Below, one piece after another: positions 1 through 18,539 of a DNA stretch of 24,507 bases. How positions within the stretch are numbered: position 1 is the first letter of the stretch; every line of letters begins with the position of its first letter. Location: positions 1-24,507 of IMG/VR virus record IMGVR_UViG_3300026142_000021; one strand, written 5' to 3'. Under the pieces are notes generated by a model. The model saw only the letters and a list, made by a program, of their open reading frames with translations, had not been told where the DNA came from and did not search any database. Position numbers and translations under genes: made by a program. Source of the stretch: a virus.

Positions 1-222
1 CAGCGCGGTTACTGGCGTGAAGGTACAGCATGCAAGGCTGGTGATGGCATGACGCATGGCGGCTCATTCTGGATCGCCAAACGCGACAATGCGAGCAAGC
101 CATGCCCGGAGAATGCCGACGATTGGTATTTGTGCGTTCGCAAGGGGCGTGACGGCGAGCGCGGTCCTGCCGGTACGGCGTATGTTCCGTCCACACCGGT
201 AAAACTGGACGCTGCCAAATGA
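1..222 (+). CDS. C-terminal end of a virion structural protein (partial)
   Basis: The frame is open from the first base to TGA at 220-222 and gives 73 residues; the start lies left of the window. The residues fit a small carbohydrate-binding-like module often fused to the ends of proteobacterial phage structural proteins: YWREG, then MTHGGSFWIAK, then DDWYLCVRKGRDGERGPAG, which ends as a short collagen-like Gly-X-Y tract. That pattern is seen; the family assignment comes from memory of similar phage proteins. The TGA overlaps the ATG of the connector gene (ATGA), and in HK97-like gene order the gene before the connector belongs to the capsid group, so a capsid or capsid-decorating protein is the likely whole. 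There is no in-frame TAG in this fragment. It could also be a separate small decoration protein. Confidence 0.6.
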   Translation, partial: QRGYWREGTACKAGDGMTHGGSFWIAKRDNASKPCPENADDWYLCVRKGRDGERGPAGTAYVPSTPVKLDAAK

Positions 223-575
223 CAAACCTTGTCTCGCTCTCATAGGCACGGGCGCATCTTCGGTTGGATACAACTGACGAAGATACATTCATCGCGTTGA
301 TTGTTTCTGCGGCGAGTGCGGCCGTGCTCGGCTACGTCAAGAATGGCCCGGACATCTTTCTGGATTCTGCCGGTGATCCGATCCTAGATAGCAATGGCGA
401 TCCGCTCGGCATCCCGGACGATATGAAATTTGCAACACTCTTGCTTATCGGCGAGTTCTACAAGAATCGCGAAGGGCAATCCGAAAATCCGGTTGACCCG
501 CAACATGGTTATGCCTACCTGAATCGCGCTGTCGTATCGTTGCTATATCGCTACCGCACGCCAAGTCTTTCTTAA
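219..575 (+). CDS. Head-tail connector, gp6-like (TAG read as Gln)
   Basis: Read with TAG as Gln this is a 118-residue protein starting at ATG 219, which overlaps the previous stop. The start reads MTNLVSLS-[TAG]-ARAHLRLD, then DDEDTFIALIVSAASAAV in near form, the usual opening of gp6-like phage connectors (typically SLAQAKAHLRVD followed by acidic residues and a helix). The amber at 243-245 (codon 9) sits where the family commonly has Gln. The protein would form a ring under the portal in the capsid-tail joint. In the standard code the gene would have to start at a TTG (264) inside the conserved N-terminus, losing the family signature, so the recoded start is preferred. Stop TAA. Confidence 0.85.
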
Positions 576-586
576 CTGGAAATCGC

Positions 587-796
587 ATGTCATTTGAAGT
601 CAAGCAATGGGATTATTCCGGCCAACCAGAACTGAAGGAGCGTCTTCTTTCAAAAATTCGTGAGACCGAACAATTCACAATACTGGTCGATGAAAAAACC
701 GATCGATGGATTTTGATTGGCCCGAACGATGATGCTTCAATCGCGGAAGCCTCAATTATGTGCGCCGCACTGAATGTTCTATCCAATGACAATTGA
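587..796 (+). CDS. Small hypothetical phage protein
   Basis: This encodes 69 residues from ATG 587 to TGA 794-796, with no in-frame TAG. The sequence is acidic and amphipathic (WDYSGQPELKERLLSKIRE near the start, ILVDEKTDRWILIGPNDD in the middle). I do not recognise a family. It lies between the connector and the adaptor, starts 11 bases after the connector stop, and overlaps the adaptor start by 11 bases, so it is cotranslated with head-completion genes. The spacing and overlap support a real gene; the function is unknown. Confidence 0.6.
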   Translation: MSFEVKQWDYSGQPELKERLLSKIRETEQFTILVDEKTDRWILIGPNDDASIAEASIMCAALNVLSNDN

Positions 797-1145
797 CGCC
801 GGAAAACTCCGTCATCGCGTCGCGCTGCAATCTCAAGTACAGACGCAAGACCCAGACACGGGAGAAATCACGGTTGCGTGGTAGACGCAGGCGACCGTTT
901 GGGCGGCAATCGAACCGCTATCCGTGCGCGAGTTTTTGCAATCGCAGGCCGTGCAGTCCGAGGTGACGACACGCATCACAATCCGTCGCCGGAGCGATGT
1001 AACCGCCGCATGGCGTGCGGTGCATATGGTCAACGGCGTGCTGGGAAAGATTTACAATATCACGGGCATTCTGGCCGATCCGGTCAGCGGCTTGGAATAC
1101 CAAACGTTGCCCTGCTCGGAGGGCGTGAATCAGGGCGGAGCGTAA
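786..1145 (+). CDS. Head-tail adaptor (phage head-tail joining family; TAG read as Gln)
   Basis: Recoded reading gives 119 residues from ATG 786 to TAA 1143-1145. It starts MTIDAGKLRHRVALQSQV, then EITVAW-[TAG]-TQATVWAAIEPLS, then RITIRRR and a typical ending with GKIYNITGI. This is the standard layout of SPP1 gp16-like adaptors, which bind under the connector and close the head. The amber (882-884, codon 33) falls between a Trp and TQATVWA in the first beta-strand region. Without recoding the first 33 codons are cut off and only a fragment starting inside the domain remains. It overlaps the previous gene by 11 bases, and the next gene starts on its stop (TAATG). Confidence 0.88.
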
Positions 1146-1678
1146 TGCTGTTCGCCGTTTTGTGTACAGGCCCAAGCCTGACGCGCGAGCAAGTCGATGC
1201 ATGTCGGAGTAGATGCAAGGTTGTCGCGGTGTCGGATGCATGGGAACTAGCGCCTTGGGCTGATGCTATGGTTTCGCACGATGCGCAATGGTGGCGAGCG
1301 CATCCTGAGGTGACGTTTCGCGGACCAAAGTTCACCGCGCATCCGTAGGGATTGCATGAGCTGGGCATAAAGGAATTCAAGCATGCCGAAGGGAACAGCG
1401 GGACGCTCGGAATCAAGGTTGCAAAATATCTCGGCGCAACGCGCATCTTGCTACTCGGTTGCGATCTGAAAGGAACGCACTATTTCGGGCCGCATATGCT
1501 TCCCGGACTTAAGAACACGACGCCGGAGAGGTTCCAAATATTTCAACGGCAGTTTGCGCTCCGATCACACCTTCCGGTCGTGAACTGTTCGCCTGATTCG
1601 GCGCTTGAATGTTTTCCACGCGGCAATTTGTTGGATGAATTGAATGCCTACGGCATGGCTTGCAATCAGGCCGCTTGA
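1145..1678 (+). CDS. MptE-like / 'norphogenetic' Rossmann-fold phage protein (TAG read as Gln)
   Basis: Recoded reading gives 177 residues; ATG 1145 overlaps the adaptor stop. The N-terminus MLFAVLCTGPSLTREQVD has the TGPSL loop of MptE-like/DUF115-type nucleotide-binding proteins, followed by AVSDAWELAPWADAMVSHD and WWRAHPE, and in the second half ARILLLGCDLKGTHYFG. Similar late-operon phage proteins carry the odd public annotation 'norphogenetic protein', and their function is not established. The amber at 1346-1348 (codon 68) splits the frame between TAHP and GLHELG. It is the first of six overlapping genes that look like glycan or nucleotide-sugar chemistry, so a role in making or placing a virion or surface modification is inferred, not shown. 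Confidence 0.7.
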
Positions 1679-2351
1679 GTCTCGGATTGCCGCATTCACG
1701 ACTGGGATGAAGCAATGCGGGTTCGCTGTAAGACAGGAAATGACGTTCACGCCAGATGCCGGCGATGTCCTGATTATCTGGAATCGATACGGCTAGGCGA
1801 ACGAATGCGCGAAGGCGTTTGAACGGAAGGGTTTGACCGTCCTGGTCGCTGAGAATGCAACATGGGGCAACGACGCGTAGGGAGGCCCGTGGTTGTCGTT
1901 ATGGCGAGGGCTGCACAACCGCGTTGATTCGATTCGCGACGGCGGCATGGAGCGTTGGGATGCGCTGACGATGCCCTTGGTGGCATGGCGACCGGATGGA
2001 GGCGAAACGGTCGGCCTCCCTCAGCGCGGAATCGGCCCTGAAGGCGTTGCGATGCCGCGAGGATGGATTCCGCCGGGCTGTGACCGAATCAGGGCGCATC
2101 CGGGCATGAAGGATTGCATACCGCTAGAAATCGATTTGGCAAACGCGTCGAAGGTGGTTACATGGGGAAGCGGTGCGGCGGTCAAAGCGCTGATGATGGG
2201 TATCAAGGTCGAATCCCATATGCCGGGATGGGCCGGCGAGCAGGACAATACTGATGCTGGGCGACTGGCAATGCTGCGAAGATTAGCTTGGGCCTAGTGG
2301 CGGCTGAGCGAGATTGAAAACGGAGAGGCGTTTACATGGCTGTTGTCCTAA
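1644..2351 (+). CDS. GT-B-like (capsule/KpsC-type) putative glycosyltransferase A (three TAG as Gln)
   Basis: Recoded reading from ATG 1644 gives 235 residues and overlaps the previous gene by 35 bases. This start is preferred because it includes IRPLESRIAAF, which reads as part of the fold (small strand-helix before GDVLIIWNRYG). Ambers are at 1794 (codon 51), 1878 (79) and 2295 (218). The C-terminal half has RAHPG, then LANASKVVTWGSGAAVKALMMG, a pattern like the donor-binding half of capsule-type GT-B enzymes (HPG loop, then Gly/Ser helix cap). The last amber lies in RRLAWA-[TAG]-WRLSE, closely matched by ARLAWWQWRPSE in the gene at 3151, which has a CAA codon for Gln at that place. No activity is proven. 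Confidence 0.65.
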
Positions 2352-3181
2352 TAACCGGAAAGGGTGGCAAATCCGGAAGCTGGTAGATCAGGGGCGAATA
2401 GTTGGGCGGGGCAATCGGCGCGGAAGTATTGCTCGAGGCCGAGACCTACGATTGCCGAGAGGCGCAAATCATTGTCTGCATCAAGCGTGTGCCAGATAGA
2501 CTGGTGAATACGGTTAAGGCAAGCGGTAGGCCGTTAGTTTGGGATGTTGTCGACGCCTATCCGCAGCCGAATTCGTGGAACCGAGATCAGTGCATGGCAT
2601 GGCTCTACGGGGAACTGCGAAGGATTCAGCCAGATGCCGTAGTATGGCCGACCGAGCGGATGATGCGAGATGCAGACTTCGCCGGGCCACAAATTGCCAT
2701 ACCGCATCACGCTTGGGCAAAATATCAGGCATATCCGGTGCGGGATAAGGTCCGCATTGTCGGCTACGAGGGCGCAGAAAACTATCTAGGCCGCTGGCGC
2801 TCAATCGTTCAGCGAGAATGCGACAAACGAGGATGGGTGTTTCAAATCAACGGCGATATGCAAAACGCCGATATCGGAATTGCTCTTCGAGATGGTGAAG
2901 GCTATGCGCAAAAGAATTGGAAGCCGGGCACGAAATTGGCCAACATTCAGGCATTAGGTATTCCAGCGCTGTGCAGTCCAGAAGCCGGATATCGAGAAAT
3001 TGCCAACGGTTCAGAACATTGGATCAAGACGGCGGATGATGTGGCGATTGCATTCTCTTCGCTCGAATCATCCTGCGCGCGGGAAGTCATTTAGGGCTTT
3101 CAAGTCCATAGCGTTCTGACGGTGAAATCCATCGCGGCGAGGTACAAAGAATGGCTCTACGGGCTGGCATTGAAATCCTGA
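2336..3181 (+). CDS. Putative GT4-like glycosyltransferase (three TAG as Gln)
   Basis: Recoded reading gives 281 residues from ATG 2336 (16-base overlap with the previous gene) to TGA 3179-3181. Two ambers lie close together at 2384 (codon 17) and 2399 (codon 22), giving SGSW-Q-IRGE-Q-LGGAIGAEV, which resembles the N-terminal loop of GT-B glycosyltransferases where a Gly-rich turn and RG..L line the active site. Later parts fit the fold: PLVWDVVDAYPQP, VVWPTERM, RIVGYEG, and KLANIQALGIPALCSPEAG as the donor-site helix. The third amber (3092, codon 253) precedes a 28-residue tail ending in a helical WLYGLALKS. The target glycan is unknown. In the standard code only an interior piece is open. 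Confidence 0.68.
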
Positions 3182-3906
3182 CCCATCCCGAGGACTCAAT
3201 AAGCGCCCGCGCGATCCTTAATGCAATGGGCCAAGCGAGTCCGATGCCGTGCGCGAATACGTCTGGATATTTTGGCAAGCATCATTTACTGATGTTATGG
3301 GGATACGGGAGGCCAGGCAATTCGGAGGTCGTGCGCGGACATATTAAGCGTGGCGGTCGGGTGATTTTGTGGGACTTGGGATATTTCGGCGATCGCAAAA
3401 ATTATGCGCGCTTAAGCATAGACCAATGGCATCCGTAGACGTGGCTTGACAGGACGCCGGCCGATCCCTCGCGGTGGCAAGCGCTGAATATCCCGCTGCG
3501 GAATGATGCGAATGATGATGGTCCAGTAATTGTCATCGGTATGGGGAAAAAGTCGCGCGTATTCCTTGGCGCTGGCGATTGGGAGTTACGAAAAGCAAGC
3601 GAGTTGCAGCAGCGGTTTCCCGGTAGAAGCATCATTGTGCGCCAGAAGCGTGCCCAGGTTCCGATTGACCAAGCATTACGCGGAGCATCGCTTGTCGTTT
3701 GTCATCACAGCAATTGTGCCGTGGATGCGATTATCGCTGGCGTGCCATTCGAGTGCGAAGACGGCGCAGCGCATTGGCTATAGGGCAAGCCATATACGAT
3801 GCAATCGCGACTAGATTTTCTGGCGCGGCTCGCATGGTGGCAATGGAGGCCGAGCGAAGCAGCGCTGGCATGGAAATTTATCTTGAGGATGGTCAATGCG
3901 TCTTAA
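3151..3906 (+). CDS. GT-B-like (capsule-type) putative glycosyltransferase B, related to the gene at 1644 (two TAG as Gln)
   Basis: Recoded reading gives 251 residues from ATG 3151 (31-base overlap) to TAA 3904-3906. Ambers are at 3436 (codon 96, DQWHP-Q-TWLD) and 3781 (codon 211, AHWL-Q-GKPY). The second half carries ASLVVCHHSNCAVDAIIAG followed by VPFECEDG, a typical donor-site block of capsule/surface-carbohydrate transferases. Its C-terminus LARLAWWQWRPSEA parallels RRLAWAQWRLSE in the gene at 1644, and the block before it also corresponds (VVTWGSGAAVKALMMG), so the two look like diverged copies. The catalytic role is inferred from fold features only. It may act with the neighbouring methyltransferase and GT8-like gene. 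Confidence 0.65.
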
Positions 3907-4393
3907 CATTGGATGTGGAAACAAGAGAATTGCAGGCTATACGGGCGTCGATGCCGTGGCTCGAAGCGCGGCGGATATCGTTTCGCCCGCATGGTAGATT
4001 CCGCTCTCGGATGGGTGCGTTGATGAGATCATGGCCATCCACGTTTGGGAACATTTCTATCGCTGGCAGTGTGATGATGTGATTGGAGAATGGCGACGAT
4101 TACTCAAGCCTGGTGGCTTGCTCGTCCTGGAATTGCCGGATTTTTGGAAGTGCTGCCGCAATGTTGTCGAAAGCGTCAAGGGCAAGCATCCAGACCAGCT
4201 TTCGATGTGGGGGTGCTATGGTGATCCAACGGGGCATGATGAATTCATGGCCCATCGTTGGGGTTGGACTCCGCAAACCCTGGGTGAATTTCTCAAGGCG
4301 AATGGCTTTGCTTCCATTGCCGAAAAGCCTACGCAGTTCCACCGCGCCGGTAAGGATTTGCGCGATATGCGAATTGAGGCCATCAAGGCATGA
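3896..4393 (+). CDS. Class I SAM-dependent methyltransferase (one TAG as Gln)
   Basis: Recoded reading gives 165 residues from ATG 3896 (11-base overlap) to TGA 4391-4393. Motif I is LNIGCGNKRIAGYTGVD at the N-terminus, the SAM-binding Gly-rich loop with the following acidic residue. Next come AWQIPLSDGCVDEI (amber 3995, codon 34), HVWEHF, and RRLLKPGGLLVLELPD, the standard order of type-11 small-molecule or sugar methyltransferases. In the standard code motif I would be cut off from the rest, leaving a dead protein. Its place among glycosyltransferase-like genes suggests methylation of a sugar or sugar precursor; this is inference. The stop overlaps the next start (ATGA). Confidence 0.82.
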
Positions 4394-5085
4394 ATCCGTT
4401 GCGCGTCTACATCGGTTTTGACGCCCGTGAGCAGGAAGCGTACCGCGTTGCGGAATCGTCGCTGCGCAAGCACGCATCTGTTCCGGTATGCGTCACTCCA
4501 TTGAAGGCAGACAGGCTTGCCTCATTTGGACTGCTGCGGCGCCCGTAGGATCGTCGCGGGACAATCTACGATCTGCCGAGCAATGCCCCATGCTCCACAG
4601 ACTTCGCCATTTCCCGTTTCCTTGTCCCGCACCTAGCGCAAACTGGATGGGCGCTATTCGTAGATTCAGACGTCGTGTTCCTCGGCGATGTGGCGGAGTT
4701 ATTCGACCAAGCCGACGACAGTAAGGCTGTCATGGTTGTGAAGCATTCGTAGCCGGAAACCGGCGGCCTGAAAATGGATGGTCAATCGTAGCTGCACTAC
4801 GACAGGAAGAACTGGTCGAGTGTGATGCTAATAAACGCAAGCCATCCAGCGAATCAGCGCCTAAGCTTGCAGGACGTGAACGAGCGTCCAGGCCGAGATC
4901 TGCATCGATTCTACTGGCTGCATGATTCCGAGATCGGGATGCTGACTCCGGATTGGAACGTCTTGATTGGAGTTCAGGAAAAACCATTCTTCCCAAAGCT
5001 CGCGCATTTCACGCTGGGCGGTCCATTCTTGCCGAACTGGAAAGGCGCAGAGCATGATGAAATTTGGCTGGAGGCGGCGCGCTGA
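4390..5085 (+). CDS. GT8-like (GT-A fold) putative glycosyltransferase (three TAG as Gln)
   Basis: Recoded reading gives 231 residues from ATG 4390 to TGA 5083-5085. It begins RVYIGFDAREQEAYRVAESS, the usual opening strand and helix of phage GT8-like enzymes, and carries ALFVDSDVVFLGDV, with a DxD metal-nucleotide-sugar motif. Ambers are at 4546 (codon 53), 4750 (codon 121) and 4789 (codon 134), the last two 12 codons apart just after the DxD region. The C-terminal part has the HFTLGGPFLPNW pattern typical of the family's end. The substrate is unknown. Position as last member of the cassette and overlap with the tail terminator gene (shared base 5085) tie it to late expression. Confidence 0.75.
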
Positions 5086-5450
5086 TGTTTCCGCCAGTTT
5101 TCAGTACCGCCGTCGCCGCGTCCGCCGTCACCGCATTACTCGGCACGAATCCGACACGCCTATATCTTTTCGGCGAGGCTCCGCAGGGCGTAGCAAAACC
5201 CTATGCCGTCTGGCAAACCGTCGCCGGCTCACCTGAAAATTATCTCGGTACGCTACCAGATATCGATCATTGGGTTGTATAGGTCGATGTGTACGCAGAT
5301 ACCGCCTCAAGCGCTCGCGCGGTTGCGTAGGCATTGCGTGACGCATTTGAGAGCAAAGCATACGTGACGGACTGGCTCGGAGAATCGCGCAGCACGGACA
5401 CACTGAATTATCGGTACGGTTTCATGCTGTCATGGTGGAAGCCGCGCTAA
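5085..5450 (+). CDS. DUF3168 tail completion / tail terminator protein (two TAG as Gln)
   Basis: Recoded reading gives 121 residues from ATG 5085 (TGATG with the previous stop) to TAA 5448-5450. The layout FPPVFSTAVAASAVTALLG, then YAVWQTVAGSPENYL, then HWVV-[TAG]-VDVYADTASSARAVA-[TAG]-ALRDAF, then a closing beta region RYGFMLSWW fits DUF3168 proteins of lambda gpU-like function, which cap the tail tube and join it to the head. Ambers are at 5280 (codon 66) and 5328 (codon 82); the first is where the family normally reads Q before a hydrophobic strand. Gene order (before the tail tube) agrees. Confidence 0.88.
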
Positions 5451-5455
5451 CGAAT

Positions 5456-5494: not shown

Positions 5495-5524
5495 ATCTTT
5501 CAATCATCTAGATGAGGTATCAAA

Positions 5525-5989
5525 ATGGCGGTCTTGACTCGCGGTACATAGCTCTACTTCGTAAATCCGGCGACCCATGCGGTCGTTGAACTCTATTGCG
5601 TGAAAACGCTTGATCCCGGCGGCGCGCAGCGCGGCTAGGTCGAAACGACTTGTCTCAACGCTCAGTCACGCTCGTATCTTCCTGGCCTGCCGACTCCCGG
5701 CTAGGCTACGCTGACGATCGATTTCGATCCGCGCCAGGCGAGTCATGTCCTGTTCCATGATCTGTACGTCTCGGGCGATACACTTCATTTCGCGCTTGGC
5801 TGGTCTGACGGCACCGCACCGCCGACCGTGAACTCTGCCGGTGAATTCGTTTTCCCGACGACACGCACATGGTTGTCGTTCGATGGATTCATCCAGAACT
5901 GTCCGTTCAACTTCCAAGTTGATCAGACGGTGCAGTCGAGCGTGCAGATCCAGGTGTCTGACTTCCCTGACCTGCTCGCGAAGACCTGA
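5525..5989 (+). CDS. Major tail tube protein (three TAG as Gln)
   Basis: Recoded reading gives 154 residues from ATG 5525, preceded by GAGG about 8 bases upstream, to TGA 5987-5989. Ambers are at 5549 (codon 9), 5636 (codon 38) and 5702 (codon 60): MAVLTRGTQLYFV, QRGQVETTCL, PGQATLTIDFDP. The beta-rich chain, the LTIDFDPRQASHVLFHDLY segment and the C-terminal FDGFIQNCPFNFQVDQTV fit tail tube subunits of siphoviruses, which polymerise around the tape measure. Position after the tail terminator and before the chaperones agrees. With an amber at codon 9 no tail tube could be made in a strictly standard-code cell. Confidence 0.82.
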
Positions 5990-5991
5990 GA

Positions 5992-6474
5992 ATGGCTGAT
6001 GCCGTTGACGTTCGCGGACTAGAGGGGGCACTTGACTTGCTCAAGAGCCTCCCTCAAGAGCTTGTCTCAAGCAAGGGCGGCGTCGTGCTGTCCGGTCTGC
6101 GGAAGGGTGCAACGATTGTTCGCAAAGCATGGCAGGCGGAAGTTCAGCGCATGGTGGACGAGCCGAATATCGCGGGGCGCTACAAGGATATAGGCCTATA
6201 CAAAAGATCCATCGGCGCCAAGCGCGTCAGCAATCCGAAGAAGTATGGAGCGGATGAAATGGTGCGTGTTCGCGTGAAGGCTGGCACGTATCCGGACGGC
6301 GATCCTGTCGCAATGGTCGCCGGCATCCTCGAGCACGGCGATGAACACATGGTCGCCAAGGCTCCTTTCAGCAAGGCCACGGAAGGCATAGGGCAAGCCG
6401 TTGCAGATGCGGTTGTGCAAGGCATCAATGACGGCATCCAAAAGGCAATAAAGAAACTCGACCCAACGGCTTAA
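5992..6474 (+). CDS. HK97 gp10-like tail/neck completion protein
   Basis: This encodes 160 residues from ATG 5992 (two bases after the tail tube stop) to TAA 6472-6474, with no in-frame TAG. The order DVRGLEGALDLLKSLPQEL, GVVLSGLRKGATIVRKAW, LYKRSIGAKR, and VAGILEHGDEHMVAKAPF followed by a C-terminal helix matches HK97 gp10/tail-component proteins (small N-terminal helix, KGA.hhhK.A motif, then a G-rich AKPF-type end). It likely helps complete the head-tail joint. In many siphoviruses it lies before the tube gene, so its place after it is a modest order change. Confidence 0.8.
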   Translation: MADAVDVRGLEGALDLLKSLPQELVSSKGGVVLSGLRKGATIVRKAWQAEVQRMVDEPNIAGRYKDIGLYKRSIGAKRVSNPKKYGADEMVRVRVKAGTYPDGDPVAMVAGILEHGDEHMVAKAPFSKATEGIGQAVADAVVQGINDGIQKAIKKLDPTA

Positions 6475-6568: not shown

Positions 6569-6898
6569 ATGGAACTGATTCAGAAAACTCTCAAGTACAA
6601 GGGCAAGGAAGAGCAGGTTTACTTCAAGGAACTGACCGCCGGCCAGCGGCTAAGCCTGCTCAAAGGACAGCGCATCTAGACGCATCCGGGCGACGAAAAG
6701 GCCACGATCGAAATTGACCTTGGTGATAATCTCGAACGCAATCATCGTTTGGTTCAGATGACGCTGGTAACTGCGGAAGGCATTCTGGTCTATCGCACTA
6801 TTAGCGAACTACAAAGCGAATCCGATGCGAAGGTGCGCGCACTGGTCAAGCTTGCGTCCGAAGTCCATAAGGATGACGACGAAGAAAAAAACGCCTAA
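6569..6898 (+). CDS. Tail assembly chaperone G-like protein (one TAG as Gln)
   Basis: Recoded reading gives 109 residues from ATG 6569 (AAGGTG 5 bases upstream) to TAA 6896-6898. It opens MELIQKTLKYKGKEEQVYF and has KELTAGQRLSLLKGQRI with the amber at 6677 (codon 37), then an acidic, Lys-rich end (DDDEEKNA). Small acidic proteins directly before the tape measure gene are gpG-type chaperones that coat it before tube assembly. The end of the gene carries a slippery run for making the longer GT form. In the standard code this gene would be a 36-residue stub. Confidence 0.8.
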
Positions 6899-7221
6899 GC
6901 GGTAATCCGCAGCTTCGGTTCCTTTGCCGACTTGCCCTGACGTTTCGTAGGCCACTTCATGAAGTCATGGACTGGCCTGCGTCTCACATCGATTTATGGG
7001 CGCAATATCTCGGCAAGGAACCGTCGCCGGATGACCGCATGGAAATCCAGATGGCCGCGCTGTAGGCGCTCTACATCAACTCGCATAAACGCGAGGGCGA
7101 TCCAGCGAAACGCATCGATGAATTCCTCCTATTCCGCAATGCTTGGGGCGATGCTCCGCAGCCGGAATCCTCACTCTCTGATCTGCTAACCGAATTCGGG
7201 CACCATAACAAGGCGCGATAA
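6569..7221 (+). CDS. Tail assembly chaperone GT fusion by -1 frameshift (two TAG as Gln)
   Basis: The product is read as join(6569..6892, 6892..7221), base 6892 being used twice. After the slip the frame reads RLSGNPQLRFLCRLALTF, then HEVMDWPASHIDLWAQYL and MEIQMAALQALYIN, ending at TAA 7219-7221. RFLCRLALTFRRPLHEVM and the WPA....WAQYL block are typical of the T part of phage chaperones, which binds the tube subunit while the G part binds the tape measure. The T part has an amber at 7063-7065 (MAAL-Q-ALYIN). Making GT thus needs one frameshift and two amber readings. The tape measure start overlaps the GT stop (TAATG). Confidence 0.82.
6886..6892 (+). promoter_or_regulatory. Programmed -1 frameshift slippery heptamer A AAA AAC
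   Basis: In the G frame the codons are GAA GAA AAA AAC GCC TAA, giving the exact heptamer A-AAA-AAC in the right phase two codons before the stop. A -1 slip enters a frame open to 7219-7221 that encodes a T-like domain, the classic lambda G/GT arrangement. Confidence 0.85.
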
Positions 7222-10200
7222 TGGCAACGATTGTATTTGACCTGAAGGCGATTACCGGGGCGTTTATTACCGACTTCTAGCGCGCCTCGAAAGAGGCGCA
7301 GAAGGCGATGAAGGAAGTCCGCGACTCGATAAACGAGACGGCGGCTGGTGCGAAAGAGGGTCTTCTTGAGGCGGTGAAATCCCTGACTGGCCTGAGTGCT
7401 GGTTAGCTCGGTCTTGGCGCTCTCGCCGCCGGCTTGGGCGAGGTGACGAAGCAAGCCATCGAGACTGGCGACAAACTGAATAAGATGGCGCAGAAGGTTG
7501 GCATCGGCGTCGATTCTCTCCAGGGCCTTGTCTATGCCGCATAGCTTTCAGACGTTGGCATCGAATCACTCGGGTCTGGGCTTGAGAAGTTCAACAAGGC
7601 GATATCTGCCGCCGCGGGCGGTAGTAAGGAATAGGCAGCCGCGTTTGCGTCTATTGGCGTTAGCCTCAATGATGCGAACGGAAAACTTAAGCCTACAGCG
7701 CAGCTCGTGTCCGAGGTATCGGATAAATTCAAAGGGTTCACGGATGATGCGAACAAGACGGCGCTGGCAATGGCGCTATTCGGCAAATCTGGTGCCGAAC
7801 TAATCCCATTCCTGAACACAGGAAGTGAGGAAATCAAGAAAATGGCCGCCGAGGCAAAGGCTCTCGGTGGTGATTTCGCGGCAATTGCAAAGCCATCCGA
7901 GGAATTCAACGACAACATAACGCGCATGAAATATGCGGCGGTTGGTTTCGGCGTGGATATAGCGAAGGAATTATTGCCCGTCTTGATTGAGGCGGAAGAG
8001 CGCATATTGGATTTCATCAAATCCGCACGAGAAAACGGCACCTTCTAGGCATTGGCATCAGCAATCGGAGTTGTCGTTAGCAATCTCGATACCCTTGCGG
8101 TCGTGCTCACGTCGCGCCTAGCCATTGGTGCAGCAATTTCTGCGTTTGAGACCCTTACCGTTGCCATAACCTCGACCGCCGGAGCTGCTGCTTTTGCAGA
8201 AGGTGCGCTTGCATTACTTGGCGGACCTGTAGGTATCTTGGCAATCGCCGCAGGGCTGATGTATCAATTTTCTACAACTACAGATATAGCCACACAAGCT
8301 ACTGATCATCTCAGGGATGCGATCAAGAAGGCTGACGATGCGACAAACGAATCCCTGCCTGGTCAAAAGGCTGCGCTTAGGGCCGCAATTGATCGAGCCA
8401 ATGCTGACCTCAAGGCGGCAGATGCAGCATTGACTCGCGCCGAGGCCGAACAAAAACTAGCGAATGCTAATTTGCCTGCGCCAGGCGCCACATTCACAAA
8501 TGGTGGTGGCGCATTCACACTTGCGGCGGGCATGGCTGATTCAAAAGTCGATAGTCTAAAATAGCATATTGCTGATTTGCGAAAGGAGATATTCAGCGCA
8601 AACGAATCCCTAAGCATTCTCGCGATCAATTAGAACATTGTTGGCGAGAAGGCGAAACAGGCAACGCCAAACTTCAATGGCCTTGCGAAGGCCATGACCG
8701 ACGCAGAAAAGCAGGCTGAGAAGCTTGCTAAGGACGGAGTTGAGCTTGCCTCGTTTCTTGATCAGTTGTCTTCCAAAACTGCAGATAAGCATACGAAGGC
8801 ATGGGCGGAATACGGTGCAGCAATCGAAAAGATTAATGCCCTTTCCACAAAATTTATCAAGGATGGAATGGATCAGGCCAGGGTCCAACAGTTCATATCC
8901 GATGCGACCCAACTTGCAACCCGTTCATTGCGCGAATAGACTGATGCAAACGAGAATCTTCTTCATGTCTTTGGCGATCTCGATACGCAAATAGCGCAAG
9001 AAACTCAAACGCTGGGGCTGAATTCCGACCAGCGAGATATCGTGAATGCCACGATTAAGGCGTAGGCGGAAATCTCAAAAGCACTTGAGGGCGTAATGGG
9101 GCCATTGACTCAGGCGCAGCAAGACGAAATTGATGCAGAGCTTGGGCGCGTGTAGTCACTTGAGTTGCTGAAACAAGAAACAAAGCGCGGCGAAGAGGCG
9201 GCGAGAGACTGGCAAAATGTCTGGAAAACTGCAGGCGATGGATTGGCGAGCACATTTGCTAGCATTCTGGTCAATGGCGGCTCATTATTCGATGGCCTTG
9301 TTAACCTGGCCAAGCAAACCGTCTAGGCGATCATCGAATATTTCGCCAAGCTCGCGGTCATCAATCCGATTCTGAATTCGATCTTTGGCGGATAGGCCGG
9401 TTTCAATCTGCTGCCGACGCTAGGTAGCGCGATTGCTGGCGGCGGTGGCGTTGCCGGTGGTTCAGCCGGCATATCGTCGATCTTCTCCGCCTCGTCATGG
9501 GTCAACGCAGGTAAGAATCTCTGGTCAGGATTCAGCACGTTCTGGAACGGCTCCGGCGTCGATGGCGTCGGCGGCAATTTCATGGGCAATTTCGTCACCG
9601 ATAACGGCACGACGACCTGGACGAATAGCGGGCTAGGGAGCGCAATTGGCATTGCTGGCGGCCTCTATGCTGGCTACAACCGATACTAGAGCGCTGGCGG
9701 CGGCCTCGCCGGCCTCGCAGGAGGGGCGGCGTATGGCGCGGGCACCTATGCCCTTGCCGGCGGCCTCGGCTCGCTTGCCGCGGGCGGTGGATTTGCTGCT
9801 GGCGTATCTGGCGCGTTCGCGGCAGTTCCCGTGGTGGGCTGGATTGCATTGGCCGCAATGGCCATTGACATGCTCTCTGGCGGAAACCTGTTTGGCACGG
9901 CCGCGAAGCCTACGGGCAATACGACTTAGAACATTGTTCTAGGCCAAGAGAGCGCGTCCGTACAAAATCAGTACGAAACGAAAAAGAAAGAAGCCTTTTT
10001 CGGCGGAAATTCCTATAGCTGGAAAGACTTCGCCGCGACCGACGATTAGATGGCTGCCGCAGATGCGCTTTTCTCCGGCATCCTGAAATCGGTGACCGCT
10101 GGCGCAGATGCGCTTGGTGGCAAGGTCGGCACGCTGATTACTGGCTCGTTCTATCAGAAGTTCGATAAGGATGGGAAGGTACTCGATGCCTATTCGACCG

Positions 10201-11852
10201 TGCTCGGTTAGAAATACAAAGAAACGATGCAGCAGTTCGCGGAGCGCGTCACCGCTGAGAACTTGCTGGCATTGCTTCCCGCCGCATAGAACGCTTCGAA
10301 GATCGCCGATCAATGGCGCGCATCTGCGGATGCGTTGCTAGACGGCACCAGCCTGCTACTTTCAGCGCAGGTCGATATCAACAAGGGTATCGGCTTGCTC
10401 GGGGACAATGGCAGCCTTGCGGACATCACGAAAGAAGTTCAGAAGCTGCAGTTGCAGAATGAATCTCTTTCGCAGACCTATTCGAGATTGCAGACCGAGC
10501 AGCAGACGTTCAAGACCATTCTTGACACGTTGGGGCTGACGACGGGCAAGACGGGGGCTGACTTCCTCGAATTCACGGACAAGCTAGTCACCATGGCGGG
10601 CGGCCTATAGAACCTGCAAAGCGCTTGGGATGGCTATTACAACGCCTACTATTCCGATTCCGAGAGGCAGGCGAATGCGCTCAAGGCGATGCAAAAGGCC
10701 GTTACCGATACTTTCCAAGTTATCGGCGAAGACCCCGCCGAAAGCATGGCGAAGTTCCGTGCAGATTTTGAGGCGGCACTCCCAACGCTGACACCGGAAT
10801 AGGTGCTGCAGTGGCTTGCTGGCGCGAACGCACTCGCCAATCTGACCGCATATATGAGCCAAGCGGCAGATGCGGCAACGAAACAGGCCCAGGCAGACGC
10901 GGCGGCGCAAGCTGCGGCGATGAAGAGCTATTCCGACTTCGTCGCATAGTTCGATCCGAAGACGCTCGGCATCACGGCGTTTGAGAACTCGCTGATTGGC
11001 CTACACGGCACGCTGACGGACAATATCCAAAAGGCGAATGATCTGGCGAAGGCCGCCGGCATGGCTGGCGCTTCTCAGCAGGATATTGCAAAGATCATTA
11101 CTGCCTCCGCATAGGCCGGCGTCGATGCGCTTAAGGCGTTTGAAGATCAGACGCAGCGGCTTGCTACGAAGCTCTACGGTACAGACATTGATCGCCTAAC
11201 CAAGCAATTGACCGATCTGCAAGCTGTAGACAAAACGCGTCTTGCCGGCGTGGACCCGTATACCGCATCCCAGTTGGCGCCCTTCTTCGCCAAGCAAGAG
11301 CAAGCGATTCAGGATCAGATCGATCAGGCGAACGCTTAGGCGGCAGCGCTGCAACGGCTGGCGGATGCGACCTCACTCCTATCCAATCTCGGATAGATCG
11401 GTTCAATCACTGGTCAATCGCTTGACGACTTGACAAAGCAGTTCAGCATCCCATTGGATAAGTTTGCGACCGATCTTGGCCTTTCTGGCAGTGATCTCAA
11501 CAAGCAATTCCAGCAGGCCGAATTGCAGGCTCAGGCAGCGATCAAGGCGAACGAATATCTAGCCGATATTCTGGCCACATTGCAGGGCAAGCCAATCAAT
11601 GCACTCAGTACACTTGATGGAATAATTGGCAGCAAGCCGGTGCCTACACAATCCGCGCCTGCGGACAATTCCACGGCGCTCAACGCCATTGCGGATAGGA
11701 TCATCGCCGCGATCAATAATGGCACTGGAGCAACACAAAACACCGCGAGGGTTATCGCCAGTGCGCTAACGACTCAAACCACGCGGCAATCTGCGGCGGC
11801 ATTGAGCGGTCCACGCACCACGCAGCCACCTCGCTTTTCGCAGCCGGCATGA
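7221..11852 (+). CDS. Tail tape measure protein (23 TAG as Gln)
   Basis: Recoded reading is one continuous frame of 1543 residues from ATG 7221 to TGA 11850-11852; in the standard code it breaks into more than 20 pieces. I count ambers at 7278, 7404, 7542, 7632, 8046, 8562, 8631, 8937, 9063, 9153, 9324, 9393, 9687, 9927, 10047, 10209, 10287, 10608, 10800, 10947, 11112, 11337 and 11394. N-terminal parts such as KLNKMAQKVGIGVDSLQGL and ALFGKSGAELIPFLNTG are standard tape measure motifs. Long Ala/Gln/Lys helical stretches follow, then a Gly/Ala-rich membrane-like region at about residues 730-895, and further coiled coil. It sets tail length and passes with the DNA at injection. It is by far the longest late gene and directly follows the G/GT chaperones, as expected. 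Confidence 0.93.
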
Positions 11853-12235
11853 TTGTCCCTCGCGTTGTCGTCAGCGAAATGTTCGACGGAATGTCGATAC
11901 ATGGAAGCGCGCCGACTGGCCTGACGACACAGACATACTCGGCAACCTTCACGGCGGTCAGTCCGACGCCTCCGCCTTATACATTCACCATTACCGGCAC
12001 GTTGCCGCCGTCGATCGACCCTACGAAGACATCCGACTCGATCACGTTTTCTAGCAATAACCTCACAACCGCAGGCATTTATACCGTCACGCTGACAGCG
12101 CGCAATTCAGACCGCGTCCGCGCAAGCATCACGATCACATTCGTGATCATCGCATCAGAGCCGGATAACGCGATCATTGACGAATATAACAACTTCATTG
12201 TCGATGAATCAGGTAATAGGATTTTGTACTCATAA
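11849..12235 (+). CDS. Ig-like/cadherin-like beta-sandwich tail protein
   Basis: This encodes 128 residues from ATG 11849 (ATGA overlap with the tape measure stop) to TAA 12233-12235, with no TAG. Residues about 25-105 look like a putative Ig/He_PIG domain: YSATFTAVSPTPPPYTFTIT, GTLPPSIDPTKTSDSITF, then LTTAGIYTVTLTARNSD. The last 25 residues (NAIIDEYNNFIVDESGNRIL) are acidic and typical of a linker or short fold in phage tail proteins. It probably decorates the tail tip and may bind surface sugars. Lack of ambers sets it apart from the tape measure. Confidence 0.65.
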   Translation: MIVPRVVVSEMFDGMSIHGSAPTGLTTQTYSATFTAVSPTPPPYTFTITGTLPPSIDPTKTSDSITFSSNNLTTAGIYTVTLTARNSDRVRASITITFVIIASEPDNAIIDEYNNFIVDESGNRILYS

Positions 12236-12765
12236 TGGACAAACAAATATATCTATATCCAGAAGTCACAGCGCCATCTGGCACTGAACGTGCACTTCTT
12301 TGGAGCGGACCAGATGTAACTGGTTATACAGCTAACATAAAGCTATCAACGATTGCTGCACTGTCGAAATCAGTCATCCGCCTGGACATATTCCAGGGCA
12401 TTGTTTCATCGAAGTACGACTCGACGCAGAAGCGCGTCTGCGGAAAGGTCAAGTTCGATCCGACAGCAGCGCGATACAAGCTTTCGACGACATCAACCGC
12501 GACTCTTTACGTCAACCTGGAAACAACCAGTGCTTCGAACGCTGCCTACTTCGAGTTGTTTCAGGAATCCGGTACTGGATCACCACTGAGCATCGTCACG
12601 CTCAATACCACGTCACTCACGACCGTCACATTAACGGCAGACGTTTCAACCTATTTCCGCAGCAATTCTAACGCCGGCCTATTCACTGGTCGCGAATGGA
12701 TAAACGTTGCCGATTCCATGAACTACGCGAATGGTTCTGGAGCGTGGATCGAAATTCAACCTTGA
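12235..12765 (+). CDS. Hypothetical tail-region beta-rich protein
   Basis: This encodes 176 residues from ATG 12235 (shares one base with the previous stop, TAATG) to TGA 12763-12765, with no TAG. It is rich in Ser/Thr and alternating strands (TLYVNLETTSASNAAYFELF, TSLTTVTLTADVSTYF), suggesting a jelly-roll or receptor-binding fold. No family is recognised. Position between the Ig-like protein and a tail virion protein suggests a tail-tip or fibre component. Confidence 0.55.
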   Translation: MDKQIYLYPEVTAPSGTERALLWSGPDVTGYTANIKLSTIAALSKSVIRLDIFQGIVSSKYDSTQKRVCGKVKFDPTAARYKLSTTSTATLYVNLETTSASNAAYFELFQESGTGSPLSIVTLNTTSLTTVTLTADVSTYFRSNSNAGLFTGREWINVADSMNYANGSGAWIEIQP

Positions 12766-12772
12766 GAAATAT

Positions 12773-13861
12773 ATGTCGCTTCCTACACTATCTAAGTCAT
12801 GGACGTTCAACTGCAACAACGCTATCACGGCACAAGGCACCGCTTTGGCTGATTGCTAGGCTCTACTACTGGCGATAGTCAATGCGCTTTTGGCTACCGG
12901 TAAATGGGCGGTAGCATATTCATGCAATTCCGTCACGGCAGGCTCCGCAGGAGATGGAGTTAATCGCTGGTCTACTGGTGCGAATCTGGTATGGGGTAAT
13001 ACAACGCGGTCTTGGATGGTACTAAAAAACACCAGCATGCCTGGGGGCAATTATCAGCTTTGCATCGACTTAAGCAATTCGGCAAGCAATAACCTAAGCA
13101 TAATACGATCGGTAAATGCAGGGTTTACCGGCGGTACCGTGACTGCTAGACCAACAGCAACAGATCAAGCAACGGTGTTGAATAATTTGACGTGGGGAGG
13201 ACCAAGTTCCGATCAGGCGATGCGCTGGTCAACTGAAGTTAGTACGGATGGGCAATGCACGCGAGTCATTACCGCTGGTTCAGGCAGCTTAAGGGGATAT
13301 TGGTACTTTGAGCAAACTGCTAGTCCAGATACCGGGACTACATATCCAATAGTGGATTACGCAGTTGGAGTGAATACCGGAACAGCCAACCCGAGTTTAA
13401 CCGCAATACTGGTTTACCCGCTAAGTGCAACCCCAGGGACGGCGAGCGTAGGTTACGTCAGTCAACTAACCGCGCTTACTAGTCCGAGTTCTATTTCAAG
13501 CAATTGGCCTATGGTACCAGCTTGTATCGTTGGAACAACGGCGGGTGTTTTTGGCTACCTTGGCATGTTCCAAGACATGTGGATCGGGTCCGCTAGCATC
13601 GCTACTGGTGATAGCTACCCAGGAGCAGCGAATTGGGCGCCGAGCACGTCATATGCGGTGGGCGCACAAGTCACAAATGGATCCAATGTATATACCTGCA
13701 CCACCGCTGGAACTTCTGCATCAAGCGGCGGCCCAACCGGCACAGGGACAGGAATTAGTGACGGAACTTGCGTTTGGAGTTTTTTCTCGCAGACATTGAA
13801 GTTCGTTCAAGTAGGGCAGTACATCATTCCATGGAACGGCGGGGCGTTTAACCTCACATGA
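12773..13861 (+). CDS. Phage tail virion protein, fibre-like (one TAG as Gln)
   Basis: Recoded reading gives 362 residues from ATG 12773 to TGA 13859-13861. It opens MSLPTLSKSWTFNCNNAITA then GTALADCQALLLAIVNALL, with the amber at 12857 (codon 29). This opening recurs in virion proteins of proteobacterial phages as I remember them. The C-terminal third has WAPSTSYAVGAQVTNGSNVY followed by TCTTAGTS, a carbohydrate-binding-like repeat. Only one TAG in 362 codons. In the standard code the first 28 codons would be lost, but a start at 12890 would leave most of the protein. The stop overlaps the next start (ATGA). Confidence 0.65.
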
Positions 13862-14109
13862 CTGCGCGCGCTGGTGGTTTCTATAACGTACAACCTACGG
13901 CGCCATCCGCTGGACTTCGCGGCATTGGTCGCTCTTCTGGCGCATTCTATGCGTTTCAGTCACGCCTTCCGATCTATTGGAATACCGGATGGTACTTGGG
14001 CGTTCAAGAAACTCCGTGGCTCAGCTACGGCGCGCCAAGTTCAATATCTCCAAGCGGGCACACACCATTGACAAACGTGCAGTATGAATTGCTCGAATCA
14101 CTGCCATGA
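13858..14109 (+). CDS. Small hypothetical tail-region protein
   Basis: This encodes 83 residues from ATG 13858 (ATGA) to TGA 14107-14109, with no TAG. It is aromatic and Gly rich: RAGGFYNVQPTAPSAGLRG, FYAFQSRLPIYWNTGWYLG. There is no recognised family. Tight overlaps with genes on both sides show it is part of the tail operon and suggest a structural role. Confidence 0.55.
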   Translation: MTARAGGFYNVQPTAPSAGLRGIGRSSGAFYAFQSRLPIYWNTGWYLGVQETPWLSYGAPSSISPSGHTPLTNVQYELLESLP

Positions 14110-16916
14110 CCGTACATCGCACTCTAACCGCATCAATCGAATTCACTATGCGACAGCTCTATTCGATTCTCGATAACACCTATGCTGATGCATCGATGGA
14201 TATCAGCGATGGCGCGACTATTCTAGCTTGCAATACTGGTGGCGCGAACTCGCACCGCATGTGTCGTTGCACAGTGCCTCTGTCCGATACCATCAGCTAG
14301 TTTGAGACGCTTACTTGGGGTAGTGGATCGCTTACCAACGGTTCGTTAGGCGCCGTATACATCGGAATCGTGAATGCAAGTGCGCCGACCAACAAGTATG
14401 TTGGCGAGGATGCGAATGGCTACGGGTTCCGTTTGGATGACGGCAAGCTCTACTTCAACGGCTCAGCCGTCGCCACGTTCACTGCCTGCGCGAAAGGTGA
14501 TCTCGTCTACTTCCGGGTCAACTTCGACAACAATCAGATTTTGATCACCGTTCTCAATGGCAGCACGACGATCGGCACGTATCTCGCGAGCACCACGAAC
14601 ACGGCGGCATGGTATCCGGCAATCACGGTTGCTGGCGGCTCCGCGTTCTCGTTGCAGACGTTCTTCAATGCAGGTCAGCGCACATTTGAGAACAACACCA
14701 ATGTGCAGGGCTGGTGGGATGCTGCCGCATAGCCCGCATCGGTCTATCTTGCGACCGATCCATATCTCTCGCAGCCATCCGACAGCTTGCCATCACAACG
14801 CTTTGATGCGGTCAATGGCGCCCTGATTCCAGACAATTCGATGGTCTTCCCGCGCGGCGCGGACTTCTGGATGAACAAGGGCGATAGCCGGCTCGGTTCA
14901 TCGCTGAGCACGCTGGCATTAGAAGACCCAGACGGAAAATATGATTTCATGCTTGACCATCGCAATGCAGCGATGAAGTTGAGCACGGTAGACCAGAGCG
15001 GAAGCTACGATAGCGCGTAGCTTGAGGATACCGTCATCCTTGATCGAGTGGAAACAAAAGGTGACCAAGCCAAGGTCATCTATATGGCCGATCCGATCGC
15101 GGAATTCTTATCAAAGCCGTTCAATACGACCTATTTTCTGCCGAACTAGGATTCTAGCGTGGTGGATACGCCGGTGCCGGTTCTTATCGGCATGGCGCGC
15201 AATTTCGAGCCGGTGTGTGAAGATCCGGTAAACCATGTCTACCGCATTAGTGATAGTGCAATAGGTGCAATTGGTGCGGTTAGGGTATAGGGCAAGCTGC
15301 TTGTATTCGGCACGGACTATACGTTGTCCGCTGACGGCATGCGAATCACTCTCACGGCTGCGCCTACAGGAAAATTGACCGTAGAGGCCAGCGGGGTAGT
15401 GCAGGGAATTCCTCCTGGTCCAACCGATTTGCTCAGTGGTCACGGCGACTTCGGCAGCTAGACGACTCCGGCAGTTTGGCAAGCCAACTGGCAAACCTAT
15501 TGGAGCGGAAATGATTCCTATACCAATGGTGACCGCCCCTGCTGGTTTGATGAGTTTGGCGGCGGCCATGTTGACGGCATAGACGATGCGGGCGGCCTGT
15601 CTGGCTCCAATGGCTCGGTGCTGATCAATTTCTATGCGACAACTCTGCGTCCGCAGAACTACGCCATAGGGTTCCGGACTAAGACCAATGTTGTGCAGAA
15701 CGGTAAGACCTATGCCTGTCAGGTAAAGTTTTGGGATGCGCCATACGTCGCGACTCAGCAGCCGTTGGATAGCACGACCTCGGTTCTTGCGCATTTCTTC
15801 CTTGACGGGCATCACGACCAATACCAATACCGCTCCGTAAATCACTGGTCGGGGATGTACTATTCTCAGTTCACAGATTCGGGCGGCAAGCCTGGGGCGC
15901 CTCAACTTGCCGCGGCTGGCGGTGTATGCAATGCGGTGTTCTTTAATACCGGCCTCAATCTTCAGCCGTACGCAACCGATTGTCCCGCCACGGCAACCAT
16001 CAGCTTCACCAACAATTCCGGCGCTGATCTACCCCTTTGCCTGAACTTCGTTGATGGCAACGGCGGATCATGGTGGATCCGCAGTGTGGTGCTTTACGAG
16101 TTGCCGGACGCGATCAATGCAGCCCCATTGCAAGGTGTCGGCCTCGAAGATTATATGCGCGCCGTGCTAACACGCGCTGGAATCGATGAAAGCCAATGGG
16201 ACCCAATACAGGCACGGGCAATCGATGCGGCTACGGGCTACCAGATCGGAAACTGGTTCTCGAATCAGCCGGTAACTGTTCAGTAGGCACTACAGCCCGC
16301 CCTTGACACGTTCGGCGCCTCCATCTATCGCAAACGTGATGGACGAATGGGCGTCGTTCGTCTGATTGATCCGGATACCGTAGCGGATGCGGATGTGAAT
16401 TGGGAAATCGACGAGAGCGATATCCTCTTGGAGCCTTATGTTTATCCCGATGTCATGCAGGGATTGACGACTGGCACCTATGGTCGAAAGAACATCTCTC
16501 CTGCGTCAGAGAGCGACTTTACGAACATGACGACCACTGACGTGTCAATCGCCGAGCGTAAATTGCTGGAAAGGAATTATCAGTTTACCTATACCAGCGG
16601 CGTGCAACTCAGCGAAATGTACGGTCAGGCATAGCTTAACGTTCCGCGTGAAACGCTATTCGACCTTAAGGCCGATATGTAGGCAGAAACCGAGCGCACA
16701 GTTGCCCTAGCGGTGAACACGCGCAAGTTCTTCCAGATCACAGTCAAAATGCCGCCAGGAACTCAATATGATGTCGGCGATGTTGGCAAGGTGACCTATA
16801 AGCTCAACTCAGCCGGAACGTCACGGCGGTACGGTCTGGATGGGGCAAAGGTTTTTGTCTTCGCCGTAGATCCGAACCCCGCTATGCAAACCTGCCTGCT
16901 TGTTTGTTGGAGATAA
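14106..16916 (+). CDS. Large tail-tip/hub-like protein with SPRY-like domain (nine TAG as Gln)
   Basis: Recoded reading gives 936 residues from ATG 14106 to TAA 16914-16916. Ambers are at codons 65, 209, 305, 348, 395, 452, 727, 843 and 859 (14298, 14730, 15018, 15147, 15288, 15459, 16284, 16632, 16680). Residues about 66-205 look like a B30.2/SPRY lectin-like domain (GYGFRLDDGKLYFNGSAV, GDLVYFRVNFDNNQILITV, WYPAITVAGG). A possible jelly-roll at about 445-675 follows. The C-terminal third (GLEDYMRAVLTRAGID, NWEIDESDILLEPY, KFFQITVKMPPG, DVGDVGKVTY) has the look of central tail hub/baseplate proteins. It likely forms the tail tip and contacts the host surface. A eukaryote-like SPRY fold in a tail hub is less common. 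In the standard code it is ten fragments. Confidence 0.75.
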
Positions 16917-17776
16917 TGATGTCTGGATCATCCCTATTCGGCTATGGCGCACCGGCAGGCGTGAGCTATGCCATTACGGGGGGCGCAGCCTTTGTTGGCA
17001 ACATCGTGCTCGACAACTCGGCGCCTTCCGATGTCACCCGCTTCACCTGGTCGTCTACATCGACCGCAGTCGTTACCCTGCAGGCGCTATGGTCAACGCC
17101 AATTGTTCCACGCTGCGGTTGTTTCTTAGGCACCACGCTTCCTATTGGCATGGTGGTCACAATCAAAGGAAAGCGGTCTGGGGATTCAAACTTCCCCTAT
17201 CTTCTTGGCGGAAATTCGTAGACATCAGTTGTGGTCTAGCTTGATGACGGATCACGGGCAATCATCTGGGCGTTCGATGCTGGATTGACTCCGATCATCG
17301 GCTATGAAATCGCCATGTATCCCGCGCTTAGTGTTACCTCATCGGAACTCTTTGAGATTGGTGAGGCTCGCATCTTTCAGGGCTACCGCCCCGGTAATGG
17401 CATTCAGGAGAAATGGACGCCGGGGTTTGACAATATTCAGAATCCATCAACAACGGTCAATCGCCAACCGCACGTTGTCAATCACCGCTACAACCATACG
17501 CTCAATCTGACCCTCGGCATCGCTACTGAACAAGCCGCATGGACGAGCGATAATGGCGACATATCGCTAAACCGCTTCGCGCACATTGCGGCCGCGCATC
17601 AGACCATGCTTGCGATCCCATATGCCTACAATAAGGGTATTCTGAACGCGCAAATGCTCGCCAACTCTGCGATCTACGGTTACGCAAGCAAGGTCGAGCA
17701 GCCTCAGCACATCGAGAACCATCTTTATCAGATGGCTATGTCGTTCACCGAATATCCTCCACAGCAATACGGCTAA
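16916..17776 (+). CDS. Hypothetical distal tail protein (two TAG as Gln)
   Basis: Recoded reading gives 286 residues from ATG 16916 (tandem ATGATG; the second at 16919 is also possible) to TAA 17774-17776. Ambers lie close together at 17219 (codon 102) and 17237 (codon 108): LGGNS-Q-TSVVV-Q-LDDGSRA. The middle IFQGYRPGNGIQEKWTPGF and VNHRYNHTLNLTLGIA segments are beta-rich; I know of no clear family. It follows the hub protein, so tail tip or receptor binding is likely. Confidence 0.65.
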
Positions 17777-17789
17777 CCAAGGAGTCACC

Positions 17790-18539
17790 ATGTATAAGTT
17801 CATTCTCGCAGCGATCCTGTTCGCCATTGCCTCTTTGGCGCACGGCTAGGTCGCTACCTGTACCGTCACTGGCCCGGATGGCTATAACGGACCATATTCT
17901 CCGGCGCTGAACTTCACTTGCGGAAGCACACCACCGCCACCAGTTTGCACGCCACCCGCAACCCTTGATCCAGTGACACATCAATGCGCGACACCGATCA
18001 ACTATTGTGACGCAAGCCAGATAAGCACCGCCCTTGGTGGCAAGACGTTTCAGCGGCAGTGCGCGGGGCAGATGGTGCTACAGCCCAACGGCATTGGTGG
18101 GGGAATCGTCGGCCTGACAGATCTTGGCTCTCTGCTTGGCAACAAGGCGTTCCCGAACTATCCGTATTCTGGGCAATCGCTGACGTTCTACATCGACTCT
18201 GGATACTACGTGTCGCTGGCGTTCACTCCCGCCGCATCGGGGCTGATTAAGTTCACTGCGAACAACAGCTACGGCGACGGCGGCACGATCTCGCTGAGCA
18301 CTTCGCCCGGTGTCTTGACCCCTGGCGCCCAAGGTGTCATCTGCGCATCAACCTATGGTGGTCTGAATAGCATGATCGTCGGTACATCGACGGGATATTG
18401 CCAGGTCAAGATCGGGCAGACGTACTACATTAACTTCGCCGACACAAACGCCAACGGCGATCAGCTTTGCTTTGGTGGGACAGCGGGGACATGTGCGCAG
18501 TCGCGTGTGTCCTACGCCTTTACAGCAAGAGCGCAGTAA
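17790..18539 (+). CDS. Secreted/exported phage protein with signal peptide (one TAG as Gln)
   Basis: Recoded reading gives 249 residues from ATG 17790, with an AAGGAG box 7 bases before, to TAA 18537-18539. A classic signal peptide is seen: MYKFILAAILFAIASLAHG. The amber at 17847 (codon 20) would be the first residue of the mature protein if cleavage follows AHG. The mature part begins with a Pro/Cys-rich stretch (CGSTPPPPVCTPPATLDP) and then a Cys-containing beta domain with CDASQIS, YYVSLAFTPAASGLIKF and GDQLCFGGTAGTC, probably disulfide-bonded in the periplasm or on the virion. As last gene of the late operon it may act in lysis, exclusion or adhesion; no family is recognised. Confidence 0.7.

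Follow-up and report, generated by a model that had tools for sequence, protein, structure and literature searches.

TAG as a probable glutamine codon in the late genes of a temperate phage fragment related to PAJU2 and HK97

Can a phage late operon with TAG inside most of its genes still be translated, and if so, which residue is inserted and what would such a code do for the phage? The question is raised by a stretch of 24,507 bases, referred to hereafter as the window, which is an entire IMG/VR record without stated completeness. The window is a fragment (about 25 kb) of a temperate tailed bacteriophage and had no near match among the phage records searched. Under the standard code its plus strand breaks into short frames; when TAG was opened, plus-strand frames of 1,547 and 942 codons emerged. 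A scan with the tape-measure protein returned four contigs (G001-G004) that carry TAG in the same genes as the window.

In-frame TAG in the late gene block

The late genes and their internal TAG codons are as follows.

1-219, plus: 3' end of a tail-fibre-like gene, also labelled portal in PHROGs (phrog_1289/5073), with a counterpart in G003; truncated by the contig start, no TAG in the remaining part.
219-575, plus: head-tail adaptor Ad1 (connector), 1 TAG (phrog_40, 9.6e-20; PF05135).
587-796, plus: small late gene, 0 TAG; 97-99% identical in G002 and G003, no PHROG match.
878-1678, plus: sialyltransferase-labelled gene, 1 TAG, start codon uncertain (phrog_4603, 1.8e-25).
1644-2351, 2336-3181 and 3151-3906, plus: three genes with 3, 3 and 2 TAG; 67-94% identical in the recoded contigs G001-G003, no PHROG or Pfam match.
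3896-4393, plus: methyltransferase-like gene, 1 TAG (PF08241, 1.2e-7).
4390-5085, plus: GT8-like gene, 3 TAG (PF01501, 1.3e-4, below the Pfam cut-off).
5064-5450, plus: tail terminator, 2 TAG (PF11367, Tail_completion_gp17, 2.3e-17).
5525-5989, plus: major tail tube protein, 3 TAG (PF16460, 4.7e-56).
5992-6474, 6569-6898 and 6967-7221, plus: three small tail-region genes with 0, 1 and 1 TAG (phrog_337, 6967-7221 only).
7221-11852, plus: tape-measure protein, 1543 codons, 23 TAG (phrog_8462, 2.8e-37, and others).
11849-12235, 12235-12765, 12731-13861 and 13858-14109, plus: four tail-region genes with 0, 0, 1 and 0 TAG.
14106-16916, plus: tail-region gene with a SPRY-like stretch, 936 codons, 9 TAG (phrog_8917, 1.2e-32; PF00622, 4e-6).
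16904-17776, plus: distal late gene, 2 TAG; 99% identical over 198 aa in G003, no PHROG match.
17790-18539, plus: distal late gene, 1 TAG; 64% identical in G005, no PHROG match.

The 21 complete late genes (219-18539, plus strand) comprise 6,032 codons, among which 57 internal TAG, no TAA and no TGA were counted. TAG lies inside 16 of the 21. The original prediction of in-frame TAG without TAA or TGA was thus borne out, while its figures (58 TAG, 17 frames, 23 genes) were close but came to 57, 16 and 21 on recounting, a mismatch that choices of start codon and gene boundary would explain. That no late gene ends in TAG also held, since all 21 end in TAA (11) or TGA (10). In their two remaining frames, these genes contain 84 TAG, 106 TAA and 278 TGA, so that TAG makes up 18% (84/468) of stop-like triplets; at this share, the chance that 57 of 57 would be TAG is about 3e-43. 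Members of conserved families (PHROG, Pfam) are among the TAG-bearing late genes, and the tape measure, which standard gene calling fragments, becomes one protein of 1543 residues under code 15.

Decay in a dead prophage, or sequencing error, might be suspected in a contig that is a fragment known from its sequence only. Decay would also yield TAA and TGA, as had been argued beforehand, and the 6,032 codons hold none of either. In addition, of 54 window TAG codons that align with G003, 43 coincide with a TAG there, and the relatives stem from four differently numbered metagenome records, which may be samples of plant rhizosphere. We therefore regard decay or error as exceedingly improbable.

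Between the head-tail adaptor and the tail terminator (878-5085), the window carries the sialyltransferase-labelled, methyltransferase-like and GT8-like genes together with three unnamed genes; perhaps these genes serve virion or surface glycosylation. One gene had earlier been labelled 'GT4-like', a label for which no Pfam support was found.

The residue read at TAG and its tRNA

To assign a residue, the amino acids of standard-code homologues were gathered for each TAG column and all 20 were scored. The control, run on pooled lineages only, returned the known residue for 61 of 61 sense codons. In the pool of all lineages, which included some shadow frames, TAG scored 146.6 for Q and 6.8 for E (254 columns). 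Shadow frames were then removed for tests of single lineages, the ORF antisense to the integrase was left out of the window set, and six control codons were read correctly in each test. The window alone gave 12.2 for Q and 0.0 for E over 24 columns, and the window lineage 98.5 and 10.9 over 180 columns, which are not independent because related contigs repeat the same sites. Q was also top in each of lineages B to E, with scores of 13.4, 17.3, 6.3 and 4.4 over 31, 22, 12 and 5 columns, respectively.

The window alone is a modest sample for residue assignment. Gln is present among the homologues in 11 of its 24 columns, and the commonest residue is Q in five, A in five, S in three and E in two. 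Single columns vary accordingly. Of the sites named in advance as expected glutamines, that in the tail terminator (annotated then as DUF3168, which we take to be the former name of Tail_completion_gp17) held up, with Gln in 10 of 10 standard-code homologues, but the connector column was mixed (E 3, Q 2, T 1, R 1, Y 1). A second column in the tail terminator holds no Gln (T, A, R, S), and W is commonest at position 1346 (13 of 34 residues).

Comparison among the recoded relatives gave a similar picture. At 25 aligned window TAG sites, G004 has Q at 10, TAG at 10 and another residue at five; at 56 such sites, G003 has TAG at 45, Q at seven and another residue at four. In the reverse direction, the G003 TAG codons that differ meet four Q, two E, and one each of P, Y, S and A in the window, and the sole G005 column aligned to TAG is T. 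TAG accounts for about one in five of the late glutamine codons (57/296). The base that follows TAG is a purine in 41 of 57 cases, compared to 76 of 138 after CAG (p 0.036) and 61 of 101 after CAA, which is a weak hint of codon context only.

The window has no tRNA gene detectable by ARAGORN and no Rfam match; it begins downstream of the region where its relatives keep their tRNA. A tRNA with a CTA anticodon was found in G002, G003 and G011, each time within a tRNA cluster that lies upstream of the terminase genes, and these three are all of the window-lineage contigs that extend at least 3 kb upstream of the large terminase gene (TerL). The cluster lies on the late strand; promoters near it numbered one site against 1.8 expected. 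No CTA tRNA was found in the 51 loci scanned out of 160 that lack TAG in TerL, 37 of which include 3 kb upstream; one of the 51 (L121) carries a tRNA whose anticodon was not read. Two wider Rfam scans did not list the CUA tRNA, which was detected by ARAGORN and by direct scans (47.4 and 46.8 bits, cut-off 29), with all 71 positions fitting the general tRNA model. Its two copies preserve a pair in the anticodon stem through a change on both sides. Read by eye, the tRNA has G2-C71, G3-C70 and G73, a variable loop of 5 bases and a C-C mismatch at 1-72; E. coli tRNA-Gln agrees with it apart from a T1-A72 pair. Such features suit glutaminyl-tRNA synthetase, and by our own reading the tRNA of the relatives would have glutamine-type identity positions.

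These data also bear on whether TAG might encode another residue (e.g. Glu, Ser, Lys, Tyr, Trp or pyrrolysine). The runner-up in the window lineage and in lineage B (E 5.2) is Glu, and ARAGORN labels the CUA tRNAs 'Pyl' from the anticodon. However, every lineage puts Q at the top, CAA and CAG likewise had E in second place in the control, as expected of glutamine columns, and the tRNA fits the general model and has Gln-type positions, which makes a different residue very unlikely. The assignment of TAG to glutamine in the late block (code 15), as originally predicted, is supported by the column test, by the Gln codons of recoded relatives and by their CUA tRNA; the aligned TAG columns fit Gln in the pool, in the window and in four further lineages.

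As a separate observation, a complete permuted tmRNA (RF04321, 112.5 bits) with the tag peptide ANDDSYMPMAQAA is present in G003 (L017:14260-14568, minus) and G011 (L027:609-917, plus).

Relatives, early genes and the spread of the code

The longest relative, G003 (56,420 bases), carries genes for terminase, protease, capsid, endolysin, integrase, RecT, SSB and DnaB. The window-lineage TerL is 57.5% identical to that of Pseudomonas phage PAJU2 and 51.8% identical to that of HK97. The gene order of G003 is that of PAJU2: TerS, TerL, protease/capsid, portal (identified on the G002 copy), a further gene, Ad1 and the sialyltransferase-labelled gene. PAJU2 gp10 occupies the position equivalent to window 878-1678, and in this order the window begins at the gene just before Ad1. 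An HK97-like order was ruled out for G003, since the HK97 portal precedes protease and capsid and the reverse is true of G003. The genes of PAJU2 and HK97 are annotated as ordinary standard-code genes.

Beyond the late block, the window carries the following features.

18714-18958, no strand: four AATAGTAGCA repeats (three exact, one with a mismatch), putative integrase arm sites.
18784-18833, minus: 3' half of a tRNA-Asn(GUU) gene including CCA, read by eye, putative attP core; the same stretch lies beside the G005 integrase.
18928-19941, minus: tyrosine integrase, 0 TAG inside (phrog_1, 2.3e-47; PF00589).
20113-24368, minus: early-type genes, 0 TAG inside.
20113-20634, minus: GIY-YIG nuclease.

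Apart from the integrase and the nuclease, the minus-strand genes have no clear name. The early genes of the window contain 70 CAA or CAG codons and no internal TAG (probability near 4e-7 at the late TAG share, taken here as 57/301), and the 15 early-region frames of G003 contain 126 Gln codons and no internal TAG; in both, the frames were chosen as open under the standard code, a choice that favours a zero outcome. TAG ends one window frame (21129-21872, minus, start uncertain) and one of the 15 G003 frames, which has no Pfam match. The endolysin gene of G003 and G002 has in-frame TAG, as does the HNH gene of G003. In what was examined, recoding is concentrated in late and lysis genes.

An integrase, a temperate trait shared with PAJU2, is present in the window, and the putative attP half-site suggests integration into a tRNA-Asn gene. 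Four AATAGTAGCA repeats were found against 0.72 expected, and none of 100 shuffles reached four. No copy of the half-site turned up in 12 genomes with up to three mismatches allowed or, with up to one allowed, in 399 genomes from the order to which a Rhodoferax genome belongs, and the integrase had no match at 1e-60 among 229 genomes from the class that includes a Lysobacterales genome; as samples, these sets do not establish absence. Window 18530-20100, with the integrase and attP, is 89% identical over 1,570 bases to the corresponding stretch of G005 (L021:2007-3576). As the longest frame of G005 (1,520 codons) has no TAG, recoded and standard-code phages seem to exchange modules. Two further observations concern integration: G007, of lineage B, carries the 3' half of a tRNA-Lys(CTT)-like gene (L202:3640-3698; G007:23640-23698), perhaps the attP of that lineage, and two integrase-like frames adjoin at the end of G003 (L018:14762-16420), the first of which matches Phage_integrase.

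TAG was found inside TerL in 9 of 169 loci, five from the window lineage and one each from G007, G008, G009 and G010, in scans that covered the best 80 of 479 and the best 80 of 584 relatives. None of the 80 genome contigs with a related terminase (best 80 of 479) has TAG in that gene. Among the matches listed, relatives with a 75-80% identical terminase also lack TAG there. The terminase of G010 (L036) is distant (24% identical, G+C 0.41) and has three in-frame TAG; over five columns of this contig, Q is the best reading of TAG.

A quick tree of TerL, one gene, placed the five recoded rows in five places. Five separate origins of recoding were rejected, because the scatter is countered by the TAG codons that G003 and G007 share: 11 of 28 Gln-or-TAG columns, compared to about 12% expected (p 2e-4). 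This excess argues for recoded ancestry in common or gene exchange, and the simplest reading is that one recoded ancestor gave rise to the G003 and G007 lineages or that genes were exchanged between them. G003 also shares TAG with lineage C at 4 of 8 columns (p 0.007). It shares none of five columns with lineage D, whose recoding looks separate.

A possible role in late gene expression

Considering these results together, we are confident that the late genes of this phage use TAG for glutamine while its early genes and integrase do not, that a phage tRNA with a CUA anticodon decodes it, and that a delay of late proteins is a likely result. TAG would then be a third glutamine codon (NCBI code 15) in the packaging, head, tail and lysis genes. 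The CUA tRNA would most likely be charged by the host glutaminyl-tRNA synthetase, as its identity positions suggest. No gene for a release factor or for this synthetase (PF00472, PF00749) was found in five related, possibly incomplete records, so release factor 1 must be beaten by other means; a phage-encoded RF2 has been reported in some recoded phages, and neither it nor a synthetase is required. Suppressor tRNA that has accumulated would outcompete release factor 1 and so enable synthesis of virion proteins. For the 23 TAG of the tape-measure gene, a readthrough of 0.95 per codon gives 31% full-length protein and a readthrough of 0.8 gives 0.6%. With up to 23 TAG in a gene, very high readthrough is needed for full-length protein, and virion protein would therefore appear in quantity only after the tRNA builds up, with late proteins probably delayed or locked during early infection and lysogeny. 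Borges et al. (2022) reportedly described stop-recoded phages of bacteria that use the standard code, with suppressor tRNAs for which a role in timing late genes has been proposed.

The regulatory part of this explanation, and that part only, is contested by the possibility that TAG came to encode glutamine by tolerated drift after gain of a suppressor tRNA. TAG codons are spaced evenly within the late genes (KS p 0.20; 12 of 57 in the first fifth), without the 5' clustering that a tight lock would favour, and the absence of TAG from the terminase of the 75-80% identical relatives agrees with drift. On the other hand, within the genes examined TAG was confined to the late and lysis sets, and TAG sites are common to diverged lineages. 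We give drift without a regulatory role somewhat less than an even chance.

A more specific proposal, which we consider doubtful, is a lock on lysogeny in these PAJU2/HK97-related phages. The CUA tRNA would be made only at induction, so that leaky late transcription in the prophage would yield no virion protein; the tape-measure gene with its 23 TAG would set a steep threshold on the tRNA, and the permuted tmRNA of two relatives would clear the ribosomes that the switch leaves stalled. An ancestor of at least two lineages would have acquired the system, which would since have been passed on or lost.

Recoding of TAG to glutamine in phages is already known; what stands out here is the temperate, PAJU2/HK97-related setting. 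In PMC9523058, it was verified by mass spectrometry in crAss-like human gut phages, in which TAG is likewise Gln, with predicted suppressor tRNAs and observed Gln peptides; those gut phages differ from our fragment of about 25 kb, which is temperate and has PAJU2/HK97-like terminase kin. Late-biased stop-recoded phages are described in PMC13059738 as having genomes of 100-600 kb, whereas the longest relative here, a record of 56,420 bases, has sisters of standard code within its terminase family. In surveys, codes 15 and 90 together make up 2.03% of 741,692 genomes (PMC12676247), a CTA suppressor tRNA is usual in recoded jumbo phages, only 4.94% of which were called temperate (PMC13037316), and a matching tRNA was present in only 13% of 285 TAG-recoded gut genomes (PMC9610469). 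PMC13037316 and PMC12676247 assigned codes by coding density, compared to homologue columns here. Within the partial literature searched, we found no temperate phage, whether proteobacterial or related to PAJU2/HK97, for which TAG recoding had been reported.

In the literature examined, most descriptions of recoding concern phages of the gut (crAss-like, Lak) and jumbo phages. The recoded lineage described here and its sisters, which have 75-80% identical terminases without TAG in that gene, form matched pairs. Since these pairs fall within a well-studied phage architecture, the proposed role of the code in timing late proteins would be testable in laboratory phages.
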